Shown here piece by piece: positions 20,188 to 57,363 of a stretch of 64,000 bases of DNA (position 1 is the first letter of the stretch; every line of letters begins with the position of its first letter). Source of the DNA: Sphagnum magellanicum (lineage: Eukaryota; Streptophyta; Sphagnopsida; Sphagnales; Sphagnaceae). The notes under the pieces are model-generated. The model did not search any database. It saw only the letters and a program-made list of their open reading frames with translations, and was not told where the DNA came from. The stretch spans positions 2,501-66,500 of the forward strand of contig CM038925.1 of the NCBI GenBank assembly GCA_021904315.1, written 5' to 3'. A program made the translations under genes and the position numbers.

Positions 20188-20952
20188 ATGTCAGTTGACG
20201 CCTCCGCCTGTGGGACTGTCGACAAGAAGTCTACAGAAGAGTATGAGGTTGACTATCCCAAAGTTGTTGTAGCCGAAGTGGAAGCGGAACTTCTGGATCC
20301 GGTGAAGTCCGACCAACTCGCTCCAGCGACGAAGGAGGCTTTTGACGAGGTCATCCATAAGGAGAACAGGGTTTTGCTTTCTATTTGGCGGGCAAATCGA
20401 GACCAGCACACAACGTCAGATGGCGATAAGCACGAGGTTATTAAGCTGACCGCGAAGCTGACGCTGCATCCAGCTCCCAAGACGCGCTTCACAGATGCGA
20501 CGATCGAAGTGGAGCTTCTGAGCCAGAATTTCAAGATCGCGTATGTTTCTCCAGAGAAGACGGTCAGCGACAAGGAATTCAAGCGGACAGAAACCACGAA
20601 TAGGGGACTTCAGTTCGGACCGACTACTCACGTACCCGTTGGCTTTAATCTGGGGAGAAGCATCCAGAAGGAGTCTTCCGGGAGGAAATGTGAAGTCACG
20701 AGCTCCGGGGCCGATACGTCAACAGCCAAGTGGGTTGTGATGAACCCCGACCCCGACAAGACTCAACTAGGTGAGAGCCTTATTGCTGACTTGGGGATTT
20801 CACTGACCCATCCGGAAGGAGCCACCACGTGCCCGGCCAAGCTTTCGGTTGATGTAACAACCCGTCGGAATTGGAGTAGGGGTCGATTTTCGGATGGGAA
20901 ACTGCGTGTGAAAGATCATACTTTCGATTTCGATTTCACTGGATTAGATTAA
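20188..20952 (+). CDS. Intronless 254-aa protein of unknown family
   Basis: This is an uninterrupted 254-codon frame with balanced base and codon use, unlike the AT-rich repeats around it, which argues for a real gene. The protein is acidic at the N-terminus (EVDYPKVVVAEVEAEL), has no signal peptide or membrane segment and seems beta-rich. It includes KLTAKLTLHPAPKTRFTDAT, followed by an alternating hydrophobic strand (IEVELL), a Ser/Thr-rich middle and a C-terminal FSDGKLRVKDHTFDFDF. The start is the first ATG of the frame. I do not recognise a domain. The F-(T)-DAT-I-V-E-L pattern followed by SPE reminds me of beta-sandwich proteins that accompany STAND or protease genes in fungi, but this is a weak recollection. 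It lies 2.7 kb upstream of the TPR-CHAT gene, on the same strand. Confidence 0.65.
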   Translation: MSVDASACGTVDKKSTEEYEVDYPKVVVAEVEAELLDPVKSDQLAPATKEAFDEVIHKENRVLLSIWRANRDQHTTSDGDKHEVIKLTAKLTLHPAPKTRFTDATIEVELLSQNFKIAYVSPEKTVSDKEFKRTETTNRGLQFGPTTHVPVGFNLGRSIQKESSGRKCEVTSSGADTSTAKWVVMNPDPDKTQLGESLIADLGISLTHPEGATTCPAKLSVDVTTRRNWSRGRFSDGKLRVKDHTFDFDFTGLD

Positions 20953-23694: not shown

Positions 23695-26600
23695 ATGGCG
23701 GATGCCATATCTGCACCGGATCAAGCGTGTGTCGGCCTGCTGGAAGAGTATGAAAAACTTATGGCATGTGGCAAGCAGCTGGCTGCGGCACGGTGCCTGG
23801 AACGTGCAACATCAGAGCTACAGAAGCGCCCTTGTGTGGCGCTTGCCTTGGCCGAAGCCCGTTCGCTATTGGGGAAATACGCTGCAGCTGAAAGAGCACT
23901 TGAAAGTGCTGATAAAGTCAAAAGCTCCCTTGGCGAAAGACTTCGGATCGAGAGTGGCCTAGCGCTCCTGCTTGTCCATACTAGTCCGGACCAATCAGAG
24001 GGGATCAAACAAGCACAGCTGAGGACAGCGAAGGCGTTGCGCTGCGCTGAATTAGACCCGGATTTGTCACCCGTGGAAAAAGCGCACATTATGGTAGACC
24101 GCGCAAAGGCGATTCTTATAGCTGCTTCTCGCTGGCAAGTTGACGTGCAAGCAGATTTGGAATTCTGGGGAGCATGCGAAGTATTGGAGGATGCGTCATC
24201 AATCCTCAAATTACAGGGCGCGCCACGGGCAGCGATGACAGCGCGTTTTCTGCTGGTGGATTCCAAGCAAACAATAGATGAACAGTTGACATTGATGCGG
24301 ACCGTCGCCAAGGACGCAACTGACTTGGGCCAGATAGGGATTGCATTTGAAGCTAGAATTCGTGCAGCTCGCATCATGACCGGAGCTCGCAGCTTGGATC
24401 GCAGCTTCACTGCTGCAAAGATCGTAGAAGAATTGAAAGATGTACAAGGTAACGAAAACATATCAGCCCTATATTCTAGGTGTTCAGCTTGATGTCGTTG
24501 TGTGCCAGGAATTACACTAGGACTCCATGTATTCGTCTTCAAATGGTCGTGAAATTTACCTGTGTGGCCTGAAGCAGGGGCCTCGGACGAGCTCTGGCCA
24601 ATTGATGTGTGGCCTGACGAGCTCTGGCCAATTGAAGCTTCTGTGGAGCAGCGGCTAGTCGGAACTGATAGTAGTGACCTCGACCAGTATAATTTGGCCG
24701 TCGAGAAACTTGCAGAAGGTGGTGCAGTACGGCAAGCTTGGGACCTAGCACGGCGGCTGGCTGATCTCGCTATCGACAGGAAAGAACACAAGACTGCCAC
24801 TTCCTACTTTCAGTGCGCTCATTCCCTTGCGAAGGATGTGGGCTGCCAGCACCTTCTGGCTGAAATGGAGCTTGTCCACATCAGGCGTCTCCTTAGCATG
24901 CAAAATCTGGCGGAGGCCATCGGGGCTTGTGATGACCTGTTACGGCCAGGGGTGGTTCGGATCTCCACGGAGCAGCGCTTTCGGATACTGACGGACGCAG
25001 CAAACGCACTGGGAGCAACAGGAGATTTTGTGGCACGCCTGGAGCGGAAGACAATGGCTAGAGCAGCTTTGGAAGCTGCAAACAATGGTGGAAATTTAAT
25101 CTTCCTTCGGCATACAATTGCTGTCGATTGTGAGCAGTCGAACTTAGAACTTTTGCAAGTAGGGGAACTGCTCGAATCAGCAGCAGACAATATCGAGCAG
25201 TTCCTTGCGTCGAGTCTGCAGGATCAAAAAACAGTACTGGACTTGGAGGAAGAGGACTTGGAGAGAGTGTTGCAGGGTTCAAAAACAGAACCGTACTTGG
25301 AGAGAGCAGAAGAGAGTCTCCAAAAGGCGAAGAATATGAATATTATGAAGGAGGAAGAGAGTTCTGCCCATGCAGGTTGGTGGTATAGTCTGACGGGCTC
25401 GGTAATAGTATGCAGGTTGATGAAGGACTTTTTTGACCAAGCTCTGAAGGACTTTCTTGACCAAGCTCAGAGGAACTATAATGAAGCTACCGGGTATGCA
25501 CATATTCAACGCAGTGAGATCTCCTTAATTGAATGATTATCTGTTCAGCTGCGTAAGTCACCACATTGCTTGTACTTCGAAGCTGTTGTGCACTCTTGCT
25601 TACCAGAACTTTAATTATAACATGTAGGCCAAATGCTTGCTGACCTGAAGTTTATATCATTTAGGCTGATCAACGCGGACTTTCTTGACCATGATCAGAA
25701 GAGCTTACACTCTGAAGCAATCAGGTGCGCACAAATTGCTTAATTCGCCAAATTGCCTACTTCGAAACTGTTGCACTCCTGCTTACCGGAAGTTGATTAT
25801 GTAGGGTAAGGAAGGACCACCTTGACGATGCTCAGAAGAACTACAATGAAGCCATCAGGTGTGCACATGTATAATTCAGAGCAGTGAGATCTCCTTTGGT
25901 CGAACGGTTTTTCTGACATGCGTGATTTTGCCAGATTGGTTATTTCGAGATTGTTGCGCTTTTGCTTACAAGATTTTGATTACTAATTTATAGGATTCTT
26001 GTACATGTATGTCCAGCTGCTTTGCAAAAGCGGGTTACAACCGTGCACACTATATTGCAAGGAACTTAATCAATGCGGCCACCATCATACTGGACTATTC
26101 TAATTTGGTCCCATCGGCGGTGGATGGCCTAGTGACCTTGCGACAGTTGGTGATGAGCTTACAGCGAGCTGTGGAAGACTGCAAAACCTCTGGGACCACA
26201 CTCGATCACGCATGGAGCTTGGTACTACTGGGTAGCGTACAACTTGAATTAGGCACTGCAACGGCAACAGAAAGCCCAGACTCACAAATGATCATTTCGG
26301 ATGGCCTTAAAGCCTTTTGTGACGCTGAGGATGTCTTGGACAAAGTGCAGCAGAGCGTTTCCCATGGCTCGCCGCTGGATCGGAGAAACATAAAAGCCAA
26401 TCTCACCATCTGTCGAGCTCGGGCTTGCCGGACCGCCCTGCCGGTACTGTTGGCCAACAAGCAGTGGATTGAGGCTTGGCAGCTCTGCCAGCTGGCTAAA
26501 AGTCGCACTCTGGCGGATGTCATTGGCAGCACCAGCCTCGTGGAGGATCTCAAGAAGTCGTTATCATCCGATTCAATGTCGCTGGTGCAACGTGAGCTTA

Positions 26601-26938
26601 CACTCGCTAATTCCGTTGGAGAGAGCAATGCCACAAACTGGGACGTGGATAGCTACCAGCTGACAGAAGCACAAGCTCAGCTGAAAGCAGCACGCAGAAG
26701 TGACACGAATCTCCAAGCATATCTAGACTTTGTAACGGGTGAGCTCAACTTCATTAATCACTTGTCCAGTTGTTGACATGTAACCTATCATTCCGGGGAT
26801 ACTCATTAAATTTTTTAGAAAATAGGTGAATAAAAATTATAGGATGCCATATATTGGTTGTTGCGTGAGAACTATTAATTTAAAATTTTTAACTATGAAA
26901 TTATTTATTCAAAACATTAATTTATAATTAATATAGCA

Positions 26939-26972
<34 letters not shown>

Positions 26973-28789
26973 CACTTGTGAGATCTAAAAAATAGTTGAA
27001 CAATTACCTAACACCCAAATTTAAATATTTTGTTTCACACATATAATCTCTATAATTTCAACGCTTAGTGTCACCCCAGGCCTATCATGAACATTCTAAG
27101 TTAAATTGAGAAAGGTTAGACCATTACAATTACAACGATCATGCAGGAGCGCCACTGAAACTGTCGGAGACAATCGAGCTCGCTCGTGAGCTAGGCGAGG
27201 AGGCCGTAGCCTTTGTGGACTGGTTCTACTGCGGCGATAGCCTGTGGATTAGCGTGGTGCGACTATGCGGGTCATCACAAGATTGTCACCCTGAATTTAG
27301 GTGCTTAAACAACAATGATTTGGATATTTTAGTTGGACTGTTTGCCAATGGCGGCCTTTGTAATTGGAACGAGCAGTCCGAGCAAGAGGAATTGACGAAC
27401 CTTCTAGTGCACCCTGATCTAGCAGAGTTGACAAAGCCTGGAGATCTGCTGGTGCTATCTCCGACCTCTGAACTCTACCGGGTGCCGTTCCAGGTATCAT
27501 ATTTGATTATCTAGCCATATTGTGAATGGTTGTAAAAACACTGTCTCGATGAGTCAGCTTCACATTAACCATTCACTTCACTGGTTCTCATGGCTCACAT
27601 TGCAGGCATTGAAAGTTGGCGAGGAATTGCTACTAAAACGAAACCCGTGTGTTTACACTCCATGCCTCCGCATTCTGCGGCAGTGTACTCTACGGCGGAA
27701 GGGTTCAACACCAGGCCAAGACTTCGCCGGCTTAGTGGAAGAAGTTTCTGCAAATTCCAAGACACTGGCTGAAAGTGCAGCAGAAGCAATAGGCATAAAC
27801 GGAGCCTTTCTGGTTGGATTGGAAACCGTGCCAAAAGTGGTAAATGAGATTGCCACGACTTTGGGCCTGGACGCTCCCCAGGTGCTTTTCTTTCAGTTGC
27901 ATACTAGTCCGTTATAATGCACTTTAGTCTTCTGAAAATCTTGAGCTCCCCCTGGATCATTTTAGAAGTGTGCCGATCTGGGCCATATTTCAAAATCGGG
28001 TTACACAAAAGGATTGTCACAATTTAAAAAATTCAAGACATATGTGATTTTTAAGTATCATTAAGAACTCAAAAAAAATTTATTTCCATTAAATCACATG
28101 TTTTTTTGAAGAATACATTTGGATAAAAACAAATGGTATAAGACAATCAAATGTTTGAGTATGGAATGATGTCCATTTAAATTTTACGAATGCCATAGTC
28201 CTCCAAAAAAATCATTTTTAAAAACATGAAAGGACTAATAAAAAGTGGACATTATTGTATGCAGGGCACCAAAGAAAATTTCATGAAGGCAATACGTAGC
28301 AACCAAGTAGTGCTGTACTTAGGTCACATCTCGTTTGAACGAAAAAATCCGCTGGCCTCCTCAATTATACTGGGTAATGACCGTTTCAGCGCCAGTGATG
28401 TTTTTAGCCTACCAGATGCTATGGAGACACGCACACTGCTGCTCGCTGGCTGCGAGGGTGGTCGTTTGCGAGTGGATCTTGGGGATGAACCCAGCGGCTT
28501 GGTGTCAGCGTTTCTATTTGCTGGCGCCAACAGTGTGTTGGTCACTCTTGGGACGATCGACCGAAACGCAGCTGCTTTCCTGCTCAACAAGATCACGACA
28601 ATGTTGAGTAAGAAGGAGAACAATCGTCGCGCTGGAGCTTTTGCAAGAGCGCTGCAGGCTTCTATGCTAGCCCTTCGGGAATCTGCGCCGGTCAAATATT
28701 GGGACCAGGGAGGGGAGGAAGAGGAGGACAAGGACAAGTGGAAAAAACCGTACTACTGGGCGCCCTTTGTTATCTACGGTTTGCCGTGA
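23695..28789 (+). CDS. TPR-CHAT protein (caspase-like peptidase), 8 exons
   Basis: CHAT domains are caspase-like (clan CD) peptidases often fused to TPR sensor arrays. My exon model is 23695-24448, 24578-25493, 25665-25724, 25805-25858, 26017-26738, 27147-27493, 27606-27881 and 28265-28789. All junctions are GT-AG, and the sum is 3,654 nt, giving 1,217 residues with no frame break. Residues 1 to ~800 are helical and Ala/Leu/Gln-rich, consistent with TPR-like repeats. The CHAT domain covers ~800-1217: the SPTSELYRVPFQALKVGEEL segment, then GTKENF. The putative catalytic His is H1064 (LYLGHIS) and the Cys is C1106 (LLAGCEGG). The end YYWAPFVIYG is typical. The start is the first ATG, with good codon use after it. 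The acceptor of exon 5 (GTCCAG at 26011-26016) was chosen to keep frame. Intron 5 holds an AT microsatellite. Substrate unknown. Confidence 0.85.
24587..24645 (+). repeat. 30-bp in-frame tandem duplication in exon 2
   Basis: The sequence GACGAGCTCTGGCCAATTGA occurs at 24587-24606 and 24617-24636, a 30-bp period. It encodes two copies of a ten-residue unit, DELWPIDVWP and DELWPIEASV. The unit sits just after the exon 2 acceptor, between helical segments, and keeps frame. Confidence 0.75.
25415..25880 (+). repeat. Tandemly duplicated small TPR-like exons
   Basis: The end of exon 2 and exons 3 and 4 share a unit: FLDQAQRNYNEAT, FLDHDQKSLHSEAI and HLDDAQKNYNEAI. Each ends in a phase-2 donor followed by similar intron sequence (GTATGCACATATTCA, GTGCGCACAAATTGC, GTGTGCACATGTATA). 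The introns also share downstream words such as TTGTTGCxCTxxTGCTTAC. The first copy also has an internal FFDQALKDFLDQA doubling. This is exon-plus-intron tandem duplication adding helical repeats. Confidence 0.75.
26939..26971. repeat. (AT)n microsatellite in intron 5 of the TPR-CHAT gene
   Basis: About 16 AT dinucleotides lie in the AT-rich 408-bp intron between exons 5 and 6. This kind of repeat is length-variable and has no evident role. Confidence 0.9.
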
Positions 28790-56187: not shown

Positions 56188-57363
56188 ATGGAATTTGAGT
56201 TCAATTTTTTGTTCTTCCTTGTTGGGGTATTTGGATTGCTAATTTGCTTCATAATGATCTTTCCAAAAGCAACATCAAGGCCCCCTAGACCACCATGTTG
56301 GCCCATTGTTGGATCTTTATTTTACTTGAGCAAAATCCCATGTCGATGCATGGTAGAACTTGCAAAGAAGTATGGACCAATTATGTACTTGCGTTTGGGA
56401 TAATTGAATTACATTGTGATTTCAAATGCTAAAATGGCCATGGAGGTATTGAAAATTCATGATGCAAACTTTGCATCTAGGCCTCAATCACTTGTAGGCA
56501 AATATGCAAGTTATGATAACTCTGACATCATTTTTTCAAAGTTGGGAGATCATTGGCGCCAACTTTGCATGATATGTGCTAATGAATTCTTCACACAAGC
56601 ACAATTCAAGACATTTCAACCTAGGCGCCAAGAGGAAACAAGTTATACGGTGGAACACATCACCAAACATAGCCAAGAAGGGAAACTCTTGGAAATGAGG
56701 CCTATTTTCCATTGATTACCAAGCAATAACATTTGTCAAAAATTATTTGGCCAATGTCATGAGAAATCAAACAACATATTTGAAAACATATTGGAAGACT
56801 TTTTCAATGTTATAACAAACATCGCAAAAGTAGCAAGTATATTCAATGTTAGTGAACTCATACCAATCTTGAAATTGTTCGACTTGCAAGGTCTCAAAAG
56901 ACGTATGAAACACCTACAAAATCAGATGAAAAGTTTTCTTTCAAGAATATTGGAGGAGTATTGACAAGGAAACAAAATGGTCATTAATTCCATTACAAAA
57001 GACTTTGTTGAAATTTTATTGAATCTTGATGAAAAACTTGATGAAAGCTCAATCATGGGAGTTGTGATGGTACATGCACCCTATTCTACTCTAGTTGTTT
57101 TAACAAAATGTGTTGAGATACATTTTGTATGTTTGTCACAAGTTTGTGATTTTTTTAATTGTTGGCTCACTAAATGTTTATTAATTTTGATTAATAGGAT
57201 ATGCTTGTGGAGAACAACAAAAACAACTGCAAATGCTCTAGAATGGGCACTAAGTGAATTCATATTCCACCCTGAAATGATGATGAAGGCACAACAAGAA
57301 CTCACATCTTTCCCATCTCTCTCCCATCATTCATTGTTCATGTTGTGGGAAATGGCAAGATAA
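56188..57363 (+). pseudogene. Cytochrome P450 relic, N-terminal half to I-helix
   Basis: Plant microsomal P450s are ER-anchored haem monooxygenases. From the ATG at 56188 one frame carries a membrane anchor (FLFFLVGVFGLLICFIMIF), a Pro-rich hinge (RPPRPPCWPIVGSLFYL), then ELAKKYGPIMYLRLG, FASRPQ and ILEEY. Stops interrupt it at TAA 56401-56403, TGA 56713-56715 and TGA 56962-56964. An intron of about 57060-57197 follows. The next exon carries the I-helix oxygen-binding region, here GTTKTTANALEWALSEFI-like with a small frameshift at its start. The ExxR and haem-Cys parts are absent. Likely a CYP71-clan type, but the subfamily cannot be told. Confidence 0.75.

Follow-up and report, generated by a model that had tools for sequence, protein, structure and literature searches.

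The DNA stretch analysed here, hereafter the window, comprises 64,000 nucleotides of the moss Sphagnum magellanicum (bases 2501-66500 of the 17.46 Mb contig CM038925.1; assembly GCA_021904315.1, 439.0 Mb in 31 contigs). Its central element is an eight-exon gene, at 23695-28789 on the forward strand, whose product ends in a CHAT domain, that is, a caspase- and separase-like cysteine peptidase domain of clan CD. Contig bases 1 to 2500 are N and the window, starting at base 2501, opens with three CCCTAAA-type repeats, the plant-type telomere repeat, which places the gene at a chromosome end, as an earlier reading made from the sequence only had described. We think it probable, though well short of certain, that the gene encodes a functional nucleus-encoded CHAT cysteine endopeptidase.

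Structure of the CHAT gene and its catalytic domain

Rejoining the exons from the sequence yielded 3,654 nt, corresponding to 1,217 codons plus the stop, with no internal stop codon and with GT-AG borders at all seven introns. This independent rebuild bears out the intact eight-exon frame, with H1064 and C1106 present, that the sequence-only reading had put forward. Exon 1 (23695-24448) encodes residues 1-251, a probable helical-repeat region, and exon 2 (24578-25493) residues 252-556. The 3′ end of exon 2 is the first copy of a duplicated microexon, the second and third being exon 3 (25665-25724; 60 nt; LINADFLDHDQKSLHSEAIR) and exon 4 (25805-25858; 54 nt; VRKDHLDDAQKNYNEAI), both of phase 2-2; the tandem copies include intron parts, and they resemble TPR by eye alone. 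Exons 3 and 4 can be skipped singly or jointly with the frame unchanged. Exon 5 (26017-26738; residues 595-835) follows the acceptor at 26016, exon 6 (27147-27493; residues 836-951) encodes a linker and then the start of the CHAT domain, exon 7 (27606-27881; residues 952-1043) continues the domain, and exon 8 (28265-28789; residues 1044-1217 and the stop) carries both catalytic residues, H1064 and C1106.

The Pfam CHAT profile (PF12770) matches residues 916-1215 with 103.9 bits (cut-off 24; E 1.4e-29), covering profile positions 5-288 of 289. When the window CHAT was aligned with nine bacterial CHATs, the H1064 column was nearly invariant and the C1106 column invariant among the 10 sequences. 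C1106 aligns with the GC motif of separase, and H1064, in a phmmer comparison with the PDB, with the CHG motif of entry 8d9f. The profile made from the same 10 sequences recovered from the PDB 8d9f (1.6e-20), 7y9x (7.1e-17) and the separase 5fc2 (8.9e-7). The first is named 'CHAT domain protein' in the PDB copy and is presumably the Craspase entry; the second was deposited under the name Csx29. Hence, two proposals of the sequence-only reading hold: a clan CD peptidase of CHAT type with a His/Cys dyad, backed by the Pfam score and the alignment columns, and kinship to the solved TPR-CHAT proteins and to separase, backed by the profile matches. The gene product is, on these comparisons, a CHAT-family member with its catalytic residues in place, for which proteolysis is predicted.

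Separase and CHAT are akin within clan CD, and the gene might instead be a separase or housekeeping paralogue. The separase profile Peptidase_C50 (PF03568) does match the window protein with E 2.3e-5, and the catalytic Cys aligns; however, its 24.1 bits stay under the 27.8-bit cut-off and far under the CHAT score. Such a paralogue is disfavoured by the Pfam scores and, given also the near-neutral evolution and the decayed relatives described below, appears highly improbable. What the window carries is a real CHAT gene, probably functional, from an enzyme family already known; it is not categorically new. What is unusual is its presence in this host, its distance from the other tested CHATs of the host and its microexon array.

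Intact frame, decayed relatives and selection

Several observations weigh against a functional peptidase. Searched alone against the PDB by phmmer, the window domain reached a best E of just 0.66, and the catalytic His is followed by Ile, at a position occupied by Gly in five of the nine bacterial sequences. No TPR model exceeded the Pfam cut-off in the full protein, the best being TPR_19 with E 0.32, in exon 1 alone; the TPR array of the sequence-only reading is therefore not borne out at those cut-offs. An AG at 25993, 23 bases before the acceptor at 26016, would if used lead to a stop at codon 620, before the CHAT domain. Either the acceptor of the model, 26016, is in use, or the pair of sites forms a switch, or this is a damaged gene. 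Comparison with decayed relatives adds further points on the same side. With the relative on contig C8 dN was 0.233 and dS 0.260, a ratio (w) of 0.89 over 358 codons, mainly of exons 1 and 2, and with that on contig C12 w was 0.90 over 232 codons, again mainly of exons 1 and 2; both values are near neutral. In the codon-matched alignments these decayed relatives hold one stop apiece, along with 18 (C8) and 9 (C12) gap events. For the CHAT domain the comparison is a short piece of exon 7, 34 codons in each relative, with w of 1.01 and 0.90. Apart from these points, a phmmer search of the PDB with residues 1-836 returned three RecA entries alone (E 0.012-0.046).

Both relatives carry stops in the matched frames and neither has a match to window 25445-27775. 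They lie at about 6136500-6155500 of C8 and 2384500-2402400 of C12, in a shared 5.3 kb stretch about 95% alike, which is perhaps a mobile or segmental copy. Because each long codon-matched stretch of the relatives holds a single stop, stops alone are no sharp clock here, and the relatives may themselves have been under constraint for a time.

These data bring in the alternative of a gene that is dying or was silenced very recently, whose frame survives by chance or because constraint was lost recently, and which is perhaps unexpressed in subtelomeric chromatin. The w of about 0.9 against relatives that themselves have few in-frame stops, the lack in both of a counterpart to 25445-27775, the position at a chromosome end and the competing truncating acceptor would all suit such a gene. 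What argues against it is the length of the open frame: 1,217 codons are free of stops, while a neutral gene would be predicted to hold several of them at half of the dS observed. In simulations of neutral drift at 0.05 changes per site, the mean was 6.4 stops and 0.1% of 2,000 runs remained stop-free (P 0.001); at 0.08 and at 0.13 per site none of the 2,000 runs did. The change on the window branch was taken here as half of the dS of 0.26 to the C8 relative, which is an assumption. Moreover, differences are fewer at second codon positions than at the other two (p 0.027 for C8 and 0.026 for C12, two tests that are not independent). We regard a dying gene as rather unlikely, and read the data as a kept frame in a loose or fast-changing sequence. 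The sequence-only reading had taken survival of the gene as a sign of selection and had proposed dN/dS as a check, with a value near 1 counting as refutation. Selection is upheld in part: the stop-free frame is unlikely under neutrality; constraint on the amino acids is weak (w 0.89-0.90), and for exons 1 and 2 the ratio came close to 1, in the sole comparison made, which includes a decayed branch.

CHAT relatives and the upstream open reading frame

The moss genome contains at least 21 matches to PF12770, which reduce to about 16 loci after joining neighbours; five of these are on the contig of the window (C19, 17.5 Mb). One of them, C19:80433, lies some 50 kb away from the CHAT gene of the window and has stops inside the match. 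For the searches and the tree, in which bacterial sequences and those of the same moss were compared, seven of the other 15 loci were taken. By phmmer, the window CHAT scores up to 75.2 bits with bacteria, the best being an actinobacterium, against 16.2 bits with the best of the seven moss paralogues; by tblastn it reaches 36.2 bits with the moss gene on C1. The moss CHATs of C1, C7 and C11 match one another at 160-294 bits. For those of C16, C19b, C6 and C14 the two kinds of score are more alike, with 58-100 bits to moss paralogues and 62-83 bits to bacteria.

In a tree of 71 rows the other seven moss CHATs cluster together with two genes of the cyanobacterium Tolypothrix (support 100/98), while the window row belongs to another supported set, of 19 rows (99/92), on a very long branch. 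In a tree of 27 rows its placement has no support. Acquisition from bacteria, or from fungi, independent of the other moss CHAT genes, would explain both the bit scores and the separation of the window row in the larger tree. Nevertheless, the approximately unbiased (AU) test did not reject a clade joining the window row to the seven moss CHATs (p 0.344). A clade of the window row with four actinobacterial rows was not recovered in the 27-row tree, but it was not rejected there (AU p 0.231). The bacterial rows were picked by likeness to the window gene and to a Streptomyces gene, which favours bacterial neighbours, and the comparison set consisted of bacteria and this moss. The tblastn match to the C1 gene and the seven introns of the window gene also speak against a separate acquisition, which we hold to be a possibility, if the lesser one. 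The transfer for which the sequence-only reading had proposed a phylogeny thus fits the scores, by which bacterial sequences are nearest, but the tests leave a common clade with the moss genes standing, and a separate origin of the window CHAT is not proven. A viral collection, searched with a few short patterns in each case, gave no confirmed relatives of the CHAT domain or of one of the bacterial small proteins described below.

An open reading frame (ORF) of 254 codons in a single exon (20188-20952, forward strand) lies 2.7 kb upstream of the CHAT gene and is a candidate partner or substrate, as yet unproven. The ORF matches itself alone in the moss genome, and its open stretch of 258 codons exceeds the longest one, 198 codons, in 500 doublet shuffles of the surroundings. 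A gasdermin was considered and set aside, since neither Pfam nor PADLOC gave a gasdermin match, although divergent gasdermins could escape such searches. NCBIfam returned nothing, and PHROGs just E 0.061 for the ORF and 0.21 for the protein of bacterial locus L025. Among 10 other ORFs of the window compared with Pfam, 56965-57363 resembles a cytochrome P450 fragment (E 0.0011, under the cut-off). The sequence-only reading had put nearly all neighbouring genes down as dead; the upstream ORF is open, and the Pfam comparison of the remainder extended to those 10 ORFs.

Some bacterial CHAT genes, too, have a small gene close by. In Paraburkholderia phymatum a 243-residue protein begins directly after the CHAT gene, and relatives of it follow CHAT genes in two Anaerolineae loci. 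The family so defined comprises proteins of about 240-280 residues (L014 7121-7849, L025 8792-9511, and members in L103, L106, L107 and L108), without a Pfam match for the three members searched or a PADLOC match for the four searched. Five of the six contexts used adjoin a CHAT or caspase-like gene and the sixth a metallopeptidase-like one, the caspase-like and metallopeptidase labels being assigned by eye. Three of the five CHAT contexts, however, came from looking at CHAT loci; the genome search itself gave four places: two of them adjoin a gene of CHAT or caspase-like type, which is lacking beside the other two, in related cyanobacteria. The latter are L110 (5897-6568) and L111 (4586-5569), family copies, one of them broken, beside a gene that by eye resembles a thermolysin-type metallopeptidase. 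By phylum, four matches, two of them known before, were found among 301 genomes from the same phylum as an Anaerolineae genome. Two came from 292 genomes sharing the phylum of one cyanobacterium, and one of these two has a stop and was kept out of the profile. Two weak partial matches (E about 0.008) among 396 genomes of the phylum of Nonomuraea were left unused. None appeared in 11 CHAT-bearing genomes or in 398 genomes from the phylum to which a Xanthobacteraceae genome belongs, empty answers that show little; in plasmids Paraburkholderia alone had the family. Around the other moss CHAT matches, stretches of 3.1-4.0 kb gave nothing better than E 2 for the small family or for the moss ORF, but their length would not take in an ORF located as in the window, and the result carries no weight.

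Other proteins recur beside bacterial CHAT genes. In Frankia (L024 9020-9529) and Nonomuraea (L055 9012-9521), the actinobacterial CHAT gene is followed by one for a 170-residue protein that looks CBS-like by eye. An anti-sigma or zinc-finger-like protein (by eye) of about 220-260 residues precedes the acidobacterial CHAT in L033, L036, L042, L051, L056, L066, L068 and L093, whereas in L034, L048, L057 and L063 the protein encoded before CHAT is a different recurrent one, of about 280-310 residues.

If the moss ORF belonged to the small family, protease and substrate would lie side by side in the moss as in the bacterial CHAT pairs. Besides the five of six contexts, this proposal draws on the rank of the ORF, which came 5th of 5,001 among shuffles with the six-member profile and 1st of 721 among real ORFs (15th of 2,001 in another shuffle comparison), on a colinear hhalign alignment and on a layout, judged by eye, common to the family and the ORF. 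Constraining the tree so that the window CHAT joined three neighbour-bearing CHATs also raised the likelihood by 2.9 above the free tree (AU p 0.57). Against this, a second shuffle set placed the ORF 11th of 5,001, and removal from the profile of the member that had given the idea lowered it to 49th of 5,001 and 10th of 721; removal of another member put it 121st. BLASTP with the first family member gave E 12, hhalign P went from 0.43 and 0.42 to 0.12 as the profile grew, and hhalign in global mode carried no information, since 176 of 200 shuffles equalled or exceeded the score of the ORF. True members score 63-184 bits and the ORF at most 6.7. Pairwise z values were 2.6 and 3.2 with two members and -0.6 to 0.7 with four. 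Predicted models of the ORF and of a bacterial small protein (two rows) had pLDDT values of 33 and 34 and were not used. A clade of the window CHAT with four neighbour-bearing CHATs (27-row tree) lay 0.8 log units below the free tree (AU p 0.376). Membership of the ORF in the bacterial family is not established by these comparisons, which lean against it, and a protease-substrate pair looks doubtful; the way in which the bacterial contexts were found lowers the odds both of the pair and of the two-gene switch discussed below.

A putative sensor protease and its likeness to known systems

The preferred reading, a functional CHAT endopeptidase, suggests a mode of action. The N-terminal part of about 900 residues, probably α-helical, would serve as a sensor, and by comparison with the TPR-CHAT of Craspase the dyad would stay inactive until a ligand binds; once activated, the protease would cut a partner protein. 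Considering (i) the weak constraint together with the kept frame; (ii) the duplication of an exon; (iii) the decayed siblings, and (iv) the location at the chromosome end, a protease of immunity or conflict fits better than a housekeeping one, and the gene may be part of a defence system that changes fast. A bolder version, a plant two-gene suicide or immune switch of protease and substrate, homologous to the bacterial CHAT-plus-neighbour pair and with a sensor varied by microexon duplication and alternative splicing, strikes us as quite improbable.

If functional, the gene would provide land plants with a caspase-like sensor protease that is neither metacaspase nor separase, from a CHAT group that the portions of the literature at hand otherwise describe as bacterial and fungal machinery of defence and cell death. 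A literature search on the CHAT domain in Sphagnum, Marchantia and Physcomitr (search stem) found nothing, in a collection that leaves most subscription papers uncovered and so does not show absence from print. With about 16 CHAT loci, a single moss genome offers ready material for examining the use of CHAT proteases in plant immunity. Moreover, the small bacterial neighbour family is a substrate candidate in its own right, though of the four places that the genome search gave only two adjoin a CHAT or caspase-like gene.

Within the moss, the 15 other CHAT loci share with the window gene a CHAT domain over the Pfam cut-off, and some of them have stretches that look TPR-like by eye; they differ in that the seven in the tree group with the cyanobacterial pair and score 16.2 bits or less by phmmer with the window CHAT. 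The four top-scoring relatives of the window CHAT, at 29-33% identity, are the actinobacterial CHATs of Nonomuraea, an actinobacterial metagenome-assembled genome, Streptomyces and Frankia, the first three scoring 69-75 bits by phmmer. The actinobacterial proteins differ from that of the moss in having about 390-435 residues, in lacking the long N-terminal part and in their neighbours. Separase shares the aligned catalytic Cys, with a C50 score under the cut-off.

Two further systems in which CHAT proteases act are close in design. In Craspase, the type III-E CRISPR complex, TPR-CHAT (Csx29) is likewise a longer protein whose C-terminal end is formed by a CHAT domain with a His/Cys dyad; target RNA is reported to open the dyad H585/C627 allosterically, from an inactive distance of about 7 Å, and Csx30 is cut (PMC9729208). 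The moss gene differs in being eukaryotic, in having introns and a longer N-terminal part, and in showing no TPR at Pfam cut-offs. In fungi, a TPR-bearing CHAT protease is reported to activate a gasdermin (PMC12881547), and this would be a parallel as a eukaryotic CHAT sensor-protease. The fungal systems differ from the moss locus in that the neighbouring moss ORF has no gasdermin match.

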